From the IMG/VR virus record IMGVR_UViG_3300035698_035380, positions 1 through 30,653 of that record: a stretch of 30,653 nt of DNA. The stretch is one strand, 5' to 3'. The translations under genes were made by a program, and so were the position numbers. Each line of letters begins with the position of its first letter. Within the stretch, counting starts at the first letter, position 1. Source of the stretch: a virus. A model generated the notes under the pieces. The model ran no database searches, was not told the origin of the DNA, and was given only the letters and a program-made list of their open reading frames with translations. Below are positions 2,385-6,933 of this stretch, one piece after another.

Positions 2385-4373
2385 TCAGCCGAACGTGAGC
2401 ATTCCGGTATTGGCCTGGCGTTCGATGCGTTTGGCGCTGCGTGCGGTCTGCTCCGTGGCTGCAGCTGTGCGCTCGGCGGTGTCTGACGTTGATGCCAAGC
2501 CCTGCACTGCTGCAGCGTTGAACGTGCCACGCACCTGAACAGCTCGATCCATCGCCTGATCAAGGGCATCAGCCAGGCCATCGAGTTTCGGCAACTGGCT
2601 GCTGGTGTCACCTGACTGGCCAGAAGGAGAATTCCGCAGACGCTTGGCTTCATCCAGACTGTCCTGGTATGCCTTACGTGCTGCGATGAGTTTGGCATTG
2701 GCGGCGTCCACCTGGGCCTGCGCGGCGGACTGTTGTTTTTTGCCTGCCTGCACCGCAGCTGCATCCAACGCCTTGAGCGTGCCTTCAAACTCTGACCCGA
2801 TATCCGCCAGGTCTTTATCACGCTGCTGGTTACTCTGGTTCAGACCCGTCTGCTTGCCCGAATCAATCTGCTTCAGATCAGCCTGCTCATTGGTCTGGGC
2901 TATGTGAATCGCGCCTTCAACATCAAAGCTTTTATCAAACATTCCCTGCAACTTGAGCAGCTGCTTGGTCACCAGTCCCACCGCCTGACGATGGGCACTG
3001 GCCAATGTCGACGTAAACGATATCCAGGTGTTTTTGAGGAACGCCACGGTCTGCACCCACGCCGCCCGCAGGCCTGCCCATGCACCCGCTGCAATCTTCA
3101 CTGCGCCATAAAACGCCTGGGCTGCATACTGCATGAAGTTGGTCTTGAACCCCAGCCAGATTCCCAGCAGCGCATTGACCCCCTTGAGCCATTGCACTTC
3201 CAAAGCCTGCCAGAGGACTTTGACCGCCAAGCTAATCGATCCACCAGAGAGCGCGTCTGCAATCCCCTGGTACGCCTCCATCGCAGCAGCTTTGAGTGTG
3301 CCAAACTGCTCACCAAGCCAGGCCAACACTTCAACTGCCACATTCGAGGTTTTGAGGAAGTACGCACCCATTCCAACCATGGCCGCAATGACCATGCCAA
3401 TGGGCGAGATCAAAGCGCCAATGACTGTTCCAAGGACGCCCAAGACAGAGCCCACGGCACCGATGACCGTGATGATCACACCCAGGACCGTGCCCATGCC
3501 AGAAAGAATCGTCCCCAGCACCACCAGCGAAGCCCCCACAGCGAAGACAACACCCGCAAGTTTTAATGCCACCACGATGATCTGATGGTTTTCTTTGATC
3601 CAGCTGCTGACCAGGACCATCACCTTCATCATCTTTACAACGAGCATCTGCAGCGTGGGCACGAGCGCTGAACCCAGATTAAAAATGCCCATCTTGACCA
3701 CAGACCAGAGTCTGCCCAGTGCGTCGCTAAATTCCTCAGCGGCCTTGGCGTCCGCACCGCTCATGGTGATGCCCAAACTTCGTGCCTCGGCCTGCATCGC
3801 CTCGATCCCTTTTGCACCATCGGCAAACAGGGGCAGAAGTTTTGTCCCCGATATCCCAAAAATCTTCATGGCCACCGCAGCCTTGAGCGTAGGGTCGGTG
3901 ATCTTGCTGATCTGATCCGCCAGCAACTTGAACTGTTGTTCGGGCGAGAGATTCGCCAAGTCATCGGCGGTCATGTTCAGATCTGCCAAAGCGTCTGTTG
4001 CAGAGCTCAGGCCTTTGCCAGCGTCATACACAGTGCGCTGCATGCCACGAATACCCTTTTCCAGACTCTCGATATTCACATCACTCAGTTGGGCTGCGTA
4101 ACTAAGTTCGCTCAGGGCTTCGACAGAGAGACCGGTACGTTTAGCCATCTTGGCGGTTTCATCACCGTAGCTGGCAAACAGCTTGACCGACCCAGCTAAC
4201 GGCGCAAACATCGCGGCCCCCAGGCCTGCGATCTGCATGCCCAGAGCGCGAACACGATTACCAAACGCCCGGAGCTTCTTCTCGGCAGCGCGCAGGCCAC
4301 GCAAGAGCTTGCTGTCATCTGCAAACAGTTCGACAAATGCTTTACCGGCTCGGATGCCCTGGGTCGTGGCCAT
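2385..4373 (-). CDS. Phage tail tape measure protein
   Basis: At 662 residues this sets the length of the tail tube and is expelled on DNA injection. The N-terminal ~60 residues resemble a phage-tail tape-measure start (AFVELFADDSKLLRGLRAAE, then heptad-like helices). A region typical of PhageMin_Tail/TP901-type tape measures follows (residues ~60-220; TGLSVEALSELSYAA). A long hydrophobic stretch (about 255-345) has several Gly/Ala/Val/Ile segments able to span membranes. The C-terminal half is Ala/Gln/Lys-rich coiled coil. At roughly 1.5 Angstrom per residue a tail near 100 nm is predicted. ATG 4373 overlaps the upstream stop (TAATG). Residues ~470-530 are rich in Gln/Asp/Lys. Confidence 0.9.
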   Translation of the reverse strand: MATTQGIRAGKAFVELFADDSKLLRGLRAAEKKLRAFGNRVRALGMQIAGLGAAMFAPLAGSVKLFASYGDETAKMAKRTGLSVEALSELSYAAQLSDVNIESLEKGIRGMQRTVYDAGKGLSSATDALADLNMTADDLANLSPEQQFKLLADQISKITDPTLKAAVAMKIFGISGTKLLPLFADGAKGIEAMQAEARSLGITMSGADAKAAEEFSDALGRLWSVVKMGIFNLGSALVPTLQMLVVKMMKVMVLVSSWIKENHQIIVVALKLAGVVFAVGASLVVLGTILSGMGTVLGVIITVIGAVGSVLGVLGTVIGALISPIGMVIAAMVGMGAYFLKTSNVAVEVLAWLGEQFGTLKAAAMEAYQGIADALSGGSISLAVKVLWQALEVQWLKGVNALLGIWLGFKTNFMQYAAQAFYGAVKIAAGAWAGLRAAWVQTVAFLKNTWISFTSTLASAHRQAVGLVTKQLLKLQGMFDKSFDVEGAIHIAQTNEQADLKQIDSGKQTGLNQSNQQRDKDLADIGSEFEGTLKALDAAAVQAGKKQQSAAQAQVDAANAKLIAARKAYQDSLDEAKRLRNSPSGQSGDTSSQLPKLDGLADALDQAMDRAVQVRGTFNAAAVQGLASTSDTAERTAAATEQTARSAKRIERQANTGMLTFG

Positions 4374-5325: not shown

Positions 5326-5718
5326 CTACTTACCGAGCGCTCCCTGGCGATCCATTTCGTCATGCTTGATCTGGATGGCCTGCTTGAGCTGCTCGGTAAG
5401 TTGTTCTGGCGGAGCTTTGCCACGGTTGGCGTCGGCGTAGGCCTGCAGCACGAAGCGCAGGGCGGTGTCGAGTTTGGCGAGGCCTTTATTTCCCGGGGGA
5501 CTTCCGGGGGTTTCGGGGGTGTCATTGGGGATGGCTTTTTCCGCGAGTTTGATGGCAGTGATGATGGAGCCTTCCCACTGCCGCCACTTTTCCTGGAAAG
5601 GGTTGAACTTGCTGGCCAGCCAGAAGAACAAAAGCACCAGCAGCAGCCAGATGACACCTAAACCCAGGCCAGAATTAAACAGGTGATCGAGAATAGGGAG
5701 CAGAGATTGTGTGTCCAT
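5326..5718 (-). CDS. Single-span membrane protein, holin (LLH-family)-like
   Basis: The protein has 130 residues from ATG 5718, with AAAGG eight bases upstream; the longer frame has no supporting start. One strong transmembrane segment lies near residues 16-37 (LGVIWLLLVLLFFWLAS). It is followed by an amphipathic helix (EGSIITAIKLAEKAIPN), a Pro/Gly linker and a helical tail (LDTALRFVLQAYADANRGK; LTEQLKQAIQIKHDEMD). TM, then a charged helix, then a conserved helical tail resembles the phage holin LLH arrangement. The linker PETPGSPPG is encoded by a TTCCGGGGG repeat. Alternatives are an i-spanin or an unknown membrane protein. No endolysin gene is present in the window to support a lysis cassette. 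Confidence 0.55.
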   Translation of the reverse strand: MDTQSLLPILDHLFNSGLGLGVIWLLLVLLFFWLASKFNPFQEKWRQWEGSIITAIKLAEKAIPNDTPETPGSPPGNKGLAKLDTALRFVLQAYADANRGKAPPEQLTEQLKQAIQIKHDEMDRQGALGK

Positions 5719-5731
5719 GGAGAGAGCCTTT

Positions 5732-6040
5732 CTAAGGGCGGGAATTCCGGGGGTTTTGGGTGACGAGTGCCTCTTTGAGAATGGAGAGCGACTGTTTGTC
5801 TGCGACGGGTTGTTTGCGATGATCCAGTTCGACGTACGGATTAAAATCTTTGGGCTTGAACGGGCGTGTCTTCTTGGGGTCACGATGAGCGTTGGCGATC
5901 AGGGTGCAGATGATGGAAGTATGCGCCCAACGTTCGCGGCCCTGTCCCTCAGCCATCCACAGCAGTTGTCGCAATGTGAATGGCCGTGGATCAATACCTA
6001 GCGACCCCGCGATCCGCCAGACCTCGCACGATGGGGCGTT
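5732..6040 (-). CDS. Tail-assembly chaperone T-like extension, reached by -1 frameshift
   Basis: This reading frame has no proper initiation codon (only TTG at 5974 with no ribosome-binding site), yet it reads as a conserved-looking domain from about 6040 to 5735: CEVWRIAGSLGIDPRPFTLR, LLWMAEGQGRERW and IANAHRDPKKTRPF. I recognise this as the second part of phage tail-assembly chaperones. It overlaps the end of the preceding chaperone gene in the -1 frame, as lambda T overlaps G. A shift at GGA-ACG (6037-6043) gives a 252-residue G-T fusion: 150 residues of G, then 102 of T. The domain is seen; the shift mechanism is inferred. Confidence 0.65.
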   Translation of the reverse strand, partial: NAPSCEVWRIAGSLGIDPRPFTLRQLLWMAEGQGRERWAHTSIICTLIANAHRDPKKTRPFKPKDFNPYVELDHRKQPVADKQSLSILKEALVTQNPRNSRP

Positions 6041-6489
6041 CCCTGTATCGCCGTCTTCACCATCTGCCCGGGGTCGATCAGATCGATCTTCGCTTCGATG
6101 GCCTGCACCGCTGCGTCGATCAGAGCCATCTGCTTGCTCAGCGCTTTGGCGCGATCGTTTCGGCCCCGGGAGTGGAAAAAATCAATGAGTTCCTCATAGA
6201 ACGCTTTCTGCGCGGCAAGCAGTGTCTGGCCATCGAAGGCAGATCGCACCTGTGCGGCCGTGACCTTGTGGGTTTCGAACTGGTTGTCCAGCAAGGCACA
6301 GAGCACTTCGCCCAAAAACATTTCGTCGGTCCCGAGCAACGTCAGAATAGGTTGGCCGTCCGGATCACCTTTCCGGGGGGCTTCGGGTTGAAGCAGGTCC
6401 ACGCCCAACTTGTCTTTGACCGCCATGGCGGTGCCAAGGTTCAAGGCAAGGGTCCAAGTACGGCCCGCTGCATCACTAAACGTTTTCAT
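5998..6489 (-). CDS. Tail-assembly chaperone, G-like (unshifted product)
   Basis: The protein has 163 residues and lies directly after the tail-tube gene and before the T-like frame, the standard G/GT position. The N-terminus KTFSDAAGRTWTLALNLGTA is typical of chaperones that coat the tape measure during tail assembly. The middle has LGEVLCALLDNQFE and a helical AFYEELIDFFHS, ending in a positively charged tail (HRARSGGSRGR) that is read only if no frameshift occurs. That odd Arg/Gly tail is what one expects from the terminated frame. G would be made in excess over the GT fusion. A TTCCGGGGG repeat at 6371 encodes APRKG here. Confidence 0.75.
   Translation of the reverse strand: MKTFSDAAGRTWTLALNLGTAMAVKDKLGVDLLQPEAPRKGDPDGQPILTLLGTDEMFLGEVLCALLDNQFETHKVTAAQVRSAFDGQTLLAAQKAFYEELIDFFHSRGRNDRAKALSKQMALIDAAVQAIEAKIDLIDPGQMVKTAIQGTPHRARSGGSRGR
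6037..6043 (-). promoter_or_regulatory. Candidate -1 ribosomal slippery heptamer
   Basis: In the G frame the mRNA reads CAG GGA ACG; the heptamer G GGA ACG differs at one base from the lambda site G GGA AAG. Slipping one base back gives GGG-AAC and enters the T-like frame exactly. Earlier alternatives such as C CCC GGG (about 6067-6073) are also within the open overlap. A downstream stimulatory structure was not worked out. Confidence 0.45.
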
Positions 6490-6492
6490 GAT

Positions 6493-6933
6493 TTAAGACT
6501 CCACCTCGACCCATTGATCAAAGACGGCGAGCTTGGCCGTCACGCTGACGGTCACGCCTTCTTCCAGCGGTTCACTTCGACTGAAGTTTGTAATGGCAAA
6601 GTCGCCAAGCGGACCTTCACTCCCTACTGCGTCGCTTGCGCCGGTCAGTACCGCCAGGCGAACATTGCCTGCTGTGAGGAACGCTGTTTTGATCGCGTCA
6701 AAGCCTGCGTCGCCCGGCTTCCACAACATCTCAAACTCTGCGGTACATTCGCGCAGCGTCGGTGCCGTGGCACGCCAACCCTGGTTAGCACGTGTGGTGA
6801 CGTCCGCCTCACCTGCTTCAAGATTGAGCGTCACGTCCTTGACGTTGCCCATCTCTGTCAGCGTGGCCAGTGCGCCTCCTGTGGCCCCCTGGTAAATCTT
6901 GGCGTTCATGCCAAGGACAAATGATTGAGACAT
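6493..6933 (-). CDS. Major tail tube protein
   Basis: The protein has 146 residues, beta-rich throughout, the usual size of a siphovirus tube subunit. Features I associate with tube proteins are an N-terminal strand-turn region (GMNAKIYQGATGG), the segment VTLNLEAGEADVTTRA with the W-R-A motif after it, CTAEFEMLWKPGDAGFDA, and a final beta region (VTVSVTAKLAVFDQWVEV). AAGGAG is nine bases before the ATG. Gene order (tail completion proteins, tube, chaperones, tape measure) supports the call. It polymerises into the tail tube around the tape measure. Confidence 0.8.
   Translation of the reverse strand: MSQSFVLGMNAKIYQGATGGALATLTEMGNVKDVTLNLEAGEADVTTRANQGWRATAPTLRECTAEFEMLWKPGDAGFDAIKTAFLTAGNVRLAVLTGASDAVGSEGPLGDFAITNFSRSEPLEEGVTVSVTAKLAVFDQWVEVES

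Follow-up and report, generated by a model that had tools for sequence, protein, structure and literature searches.

The window analysed here is the whole 30,653-nt stretch of the virus record IMGVR_UViG_3300035698_035380, and all the genes relevant to this study lie on its minus strand. An open reading frame (ORF) for a G-like tail assembly chaperone (5998–6489, minus strand) encodes 163 amino acids in the zero frame and ends with the TAG codon at 6000–5998. The tail tube protein gene (6493–6933, minus strand; Phage_tail_2, E = 1.8e-9; PHROG 1407, E = 4e-16) is located directly upstream of G. The tape measure protein gene (2385–4373, minus strand; PHROG 8462, E = 1e-39) is located downstream of a T-like frame that overlaps the end of G. 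The gene order is tail tube–G/T–tape measure, with small genes between T and the tape measure gene. The window also encodes a lambda-family portal, a GpA-type terminase and a serine recombinase, which fits a temperate lambda-like siphovirus.

Three to four small genes at 5718–4376 (minus strand) separate T from the tape measure gene. They include genes for a membrane protein, a lipoprotein-like product and two others. A membrane protein gene also follows T in 56 relatives, and the lipoprotein-like product carries an LLIMTASAGC motif and matched spanins very weakly. Among the head-tail joining genes, the region 8056–7814 (minus strand) encodes a coiled-coil protein of 80 aa that has a membrane segment at its C-terminus and no match in Pfam.

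The T-like frame (5732–6181, minus strand) is in the −1 frame relative to G and is open from 6181 to the TAG codon at 5734–5732. It comprises a linker and a T-like domain (about 6025–5735), includes VWRIAGSLGIDPRPFTLRQLLWMAEG, and has no start codon of its own. No ATG, GTG or TTG was found in this frame ahead of the conserved T domain in the window, and the sole start candidate, TTG at 5974, is inside the T domain. The T-like sequence of the window matched Phage_tail_T (PF06223) with E = 9e-5 and 23.3 bits, just under the 25.9-bit cutoff, and all 35 aligned T members matched this family (35/35; best E = 2.5e-6). Judged by sequence, the T-like domain is homologous to the Phage_tail_T family, which includes lambda T. 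The confidence of the T structure model was low (pLDDT 72.7), so T fold matches were not relied on. The AlphaFold2 model of G had a pLDDT of 88. Sequence searches of Pfam and PHROG with G yielded no convincing or named family and no TAC family, and a fold search of the PDB yielded nothing. The top Foldseek matches of G were rich in annotated tail assembly chaperones, but they were weak (E > 0.05).

Relatives were collected by using the T-like and G-like proteins as queries against IMG/VR and prokaryotic genomes, which gave 112 non-redundant loci holding both. G relatives with about 60–75% identity were present in many viral contigs and Planctomycetota genomes, and the host names of the relatives were mostly Phycisphaerae and other Planctomycetota. 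In relatives, the tape measure match was located 0–2.2 kb after T. Among isolated phages and plasmids, tblastn of T detected no relative, and the search with G returned only chance-level Lactococcus matches. The T frame was at −1 relative to G in 112 of the 112 relatives, and it overlapped or nearly abutted the end of G. A start codon near the T domain was present in only a handful of them, and none was conserved. A preliminary description, made from the window alone, had noted a T-like frame without a credible start that overlaps the end of G in the −1 frame, and this is what both the window and the relatives contain. It had also named T homologues with a conserved start codon and ribosome-binding site as grounds for refuting the frameshift; the outcome of this test was negative, and the frameshift reading stands.

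The heptamer T_TTT_TTC (6175–6181, minus strand), read as GAT TTT TTC in the G frame (6183–6175), is the probable −1 slip site. TTTTTTC was identical in 111 of the 112 relatives (110/110 plus the locus L061), and the remaining contig, L068, has lost the segment. In L068 (about 1017–1458), roughly a dozen G codons, the heptamer among them, are deleted in frame, and T is still in the −1 frame; the deletion is either a real loss or an assembly artefact. The codon before TTT TTC varied among relatives (GAT, GGT, GCT and AAT, encoding D, G, A and N), but its third base was always T. Dereplication below 85% nucleotide identity left 37 loci, and TTTTTTC was found in all of them (37/37). Elsewhere in the same genes of these loci, TTT made up 24% of the Phe codons, and T was the last base in 15% of the D/G/A/N codons. 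Because the −1 frame is untranslated before the slip, conservation of the heptamer cannot stem from coding in that frame. TTTTTTC is not rare in the window (three occurrences versus 2.5 expected); its weight as evidence comes from frame, position and conservation. The in-frame T_TTT_TTC was the sole one among the 23 minus-strand genes checked.

A Shine-Dalgarno-like sequence, GAGGAA (6190–6195, minus strand), is the presumed stimulator, and its GAGG ends 10 nt before the heptamer. GAGG was found at the same spacing in 107 of 108 unique relatives. The GAG codon was retained in 36 of the 37 dereplicated loci, compared with about 60% of the Glu codons elsewhere in G. Motifs resembling ribosome-binding sites are reported to play a role in −1 shifting (PMC10885494). 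A TGA stop codon in the −1 frame (6182–6184, minus strand) directly precedes the heptamer and thus bars a slip further upstream in the window; the last −1 stop abuts the slip site in 4 of the 37 dereplicated loci. No conserved RNA stem was found 3′ of the slip site, where RNAalifold predicted two pairs without covariation. Folding z-scores from synonymous shuffling just 3′ of the site were mildly negative, with a mean of about −0.7.

We estimated the number of −1 stops expected by chance in the 37 dereplicated loci by holding the G protein fixed and redrawing synonymous codons in 2000 simulations. Between the heptamer and the T domain, no −1 stop was observed, compared with 30.7 expected (lowest of the 2000 simulations, 14). 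Upstream of the heptamer, 104 were observed and 86 expected. The open −1 overlap in the window begins exactly at T_TTT_TTC. The dual-coded stretch (6001–6174, minus strand) encodes the C-terminal 58 amino acids of G in the zero frame, and the R/D/G-rich linker and the start of the T domain in the −1 frame. Beyond staying open, the −1 linker showed little amino-acid conservation. The substitution pattern turned from G-frame to T-frame character about 43–50 codons past the T6 site. Position-specific divergence marked the start of the T domain instead of the slip site, as constraint on the linker is weak. For the same reason, similarity changes frame near the site proposed in the preliminary description, although the slip is upstream.

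The frame relation, the missing start codon, the invariant heptamer and the open −1 frame bear out the earlier reading of the locus as a G/T −1 frameshift, and it is strongly supported by these sequence comparisons that a programmed −1 frameshift joins the G-like and T-like tail assembly chaperone frames. The slip almost certainly occurs at T_TTT_TTC (6181–6175), about 140 bases upstream of the site first proposed. Very probably, the locus is the G/GT cassette for tail assembly chaperones in a temperate, lambda-like siphovirus that infects Planctomycetota, with its slip at T_TTT_TTC.

The site was followed into more distant relatives. In divergent G proteins (28–48% identity), T6 was mostly found at the same place, and one locus, L177, carries T7 at the slip site. 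Two loci (L229 and L327) have GCA AAT TTT ACC, which allows two readings, A_AAT_TTT and T_TTT_ACC. Among 89 distinct loci from Planctomycetota genomes, 36 had T_TTT_TTC, 40 had T_TTC_TGC, and six had T_TTT_TCC, and the base before the Phe codon was T in 88 of the 89. The 53 loci without TTTTTTC had no downstream −1 stops, compared with 72 expected. In the G plus T tree, nearly all T_TTC_TGC sites grouped in a single clade that had T_TTT_TCC at the base (bootstrap support was not fully settled), and T_TTT_TTC was spread through the family. In this sister clade (L330 and others), T_TTC_TGC is at the expected heptamer position, and T still precedes the Phe codon there, whichever of several amino acids the preceding codon specifies.

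From its sequence, T_TTC_TGC is a candidate single-tRNA −1 slip site. Its A-site codon cannot re-pair, so tandem slippage cannot fully account for the sister clade. As it has no homopolymer and the peptidyl-tRNA-Phe can move from UUC to UUU, T_TTC_TGC favours ribosomal over polymerase slippage.

The preliminary description had placed the slip at G_GGA_ACG (6037–6043, minus strand) and had allowed that the true site might be elsewhere in the open overlap, which is where T_TTT_TTC lies. G_GGA_ACG is present, it is one base off lambda GGGAAAG as had been stated, and a substitution change that comes only 43–50 codons past T6 would suit a shift at this point. GGGAACG occurs four times in the window, compared with five expected by chance. 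It is not conserved even in close relatives, which have nothing like it at this position, and the A-site codon ACG is unable to re-pair on AAC; on these two grounds, it was rejected as the slip site. A slip there would also leave unexplained the stop-free −1 frame over the preceding 40–50 codons in every relative, as well as the conservation of T_TTT_TTC and GAGG. We consider a shift at G_GGA_ACG, or elsewhere near the T-domain start where similarity changes frame, highly improbable. The predicted length of the joined product, 252 residues, was correct, but a −1 slip anywhere in the overlap would give the same length, so length cannot pin the slip site. The junction IQGNAPSC was not supported; the predicted junction for a slip at T_TTT_TTC is ...EELIDFF/PLPGPK.

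Two other explanations dispense with a ribosomal shift. RNA polymerase might slip on T6 and add a U, and the edited mRNA would then be read normally. The T6 run followed by C and the one relative with T7 are in line with such transcriptional realignment, and polymerases are known to slip on T/C runs, T5C5 among them (PMC5009743). However, the constraint tracks the phase of the codons (X_XXY_YYZ, X being a codon that ends in T), relatives share a Shine-Dalgarno-like element at a spacing suited to the ribosome, and in the sister clade the −1 frame is just as open although T_TTC_TGC contains no run of more than three T. T6 is, moreover, a short run for polymerase slippage. We therefore regard realignment as unlikely. 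T might instead be translated independently by internal initiation or reinitiation, as small downstream tail genes are often separate and TTG 5974 is in the T frame. Neither the window nor most relatives have a T-frame start between the upstream stop and the domain, initiation at TTG 5974 would remove the conserved N-terminus of the domain, and an independently translated T gives no reason for a heptamer 150 nt upstream to be conserved. An independent start for T was rejected on the missing conserved start codons in relatives, and we assign this explanation practically no probability.

The slip at T_TTT_TTC precedes the G stop codon by 174 nt, and across 111 loci this distance was 150–234 nt (median, 174 nt). 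GT is thus not simply G plus a tail. In the model of G, the slip falls at the end of a predicted helix (residues 87–107). GT would lack the last 58 of the 163 G residues, including predicted helices 111–137 and 140–148, and would gain a polar R/D/G-rich linker of about 50 residues and the T domain in place of the G C-terminus. The predicted junction peptide for a T6 slip is AFYEELIDFFPLPGPK, and its unshifted counterpart is AFYEELIDFFHSR.

We propose that most ribosomes would translate G (163 aa) to the G stop codon, and that a minority would pause at GAT TTT TTC. The upstream GAGG would help the pause by pairing with the anti-Shine-Dalgarno sequence of 16S rRNA. Both tRNA-Phe would then move one base back (TTT-TTC to TTT-TTT), and −1 reading would yield the 252-aa GT protein, composed of G residues 1–105, the roughly 50-residue polar linker and the T domain. 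If the proteins act as in lambda, G and GT would cover the tape measure protein, and the tail tube protein would be recruited through the T domain. We infer the ribosomal nature of the slippage, its efficiency, expression and the protein functions.

The locus shares many features with lambda G/GT (Levin 1993; Xu 2004, 2013): a small G ORF that follows the tail tube gene, a T frame at −1 that overlaps the end of G and has no start of its own, an X_XXY_YYZ slip, a T domain in Phage_tail_T, and a downstream tape measure gene. The heptamer is T_TTT_TTC here and G_GGA_AAG in lambda. From the end of the heptamer to the G stop there are 15 nt for lambda GGGAAAG, compared with 174 nt here; a lambda-type GT contains almost all of G, but here 58 of 163 residues would be missing, and the GT linker is read from a dual-coded stretch. 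In addition, lambda T abuts H, but here T and the tape measure gene are separated by small genes.

E. coli dnaX (A_AAA_AAG) likewise has an upstream Shine-Dalgarno-like element and a homopolymeric heptamer read by one tRNA species. Its element is located 10 nt before the slippery heptamer. The two systems differ in their codons (Phe here, Lys in dnaX) and in gene and purpose, and no conserved 3′ stem was found here. The SEA-PHAGES and Xu et al. phages analysed with PRFect share the gene pair, and the second part is also expressed by frameshift (PMC10885494). Their published mean distances from the slip to the zero-frame stop are 26 nt and 36 nt, respectively, in contrast to the 150–234 nt found here, a range in which PRFect performed poorly (PMC10885494).

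In a partial literature search, no paper was found that names TTTTTTC/UUUUUUC for a tail chaperone or describes this planctomycete-phage system. The mechanism itself is known, and what is unusual here is a slip deep inside G and a long dual-coded overlap. The conserved tail-chaperone frameshift is extended to Planctomycetota (pro)phages, with a chaperone whose shifted form would lose part of the unshifted form. Prediction tools whose training covered short overlaps will probably overlook the long dual-coded overlap and a T gene without a start codon. T_TTT_TTC, T_TTT_TCC and T_TTC_TGC form a natural series of slip sites at one homologous position, which is useful for asking what the bacterial ribosome needs for −1 slippage. 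We see an even chance that, in planctomycete phages, GT is a different isoform in which two C-terminal helices are swapped for a disordered linker and T, and that, with the evolution of T_TTC_TGC in the sister clade, where re-pairing is open to the P-site tRNA-Phe alone, the family spans a natural series from tandem to single-tRNA −1 slippage at one homologous site.

A T match was found in 41 of the 392 sampled Planctomycetota genomes, some with several copies. Five genomes (G358, with loci L373, L374 and L375; G398; G401; G403; and G508) held 5–11 T-domain copies each, which suggests that a single chromosome can harbour numerous related prophages or tail elements derived from prophages.
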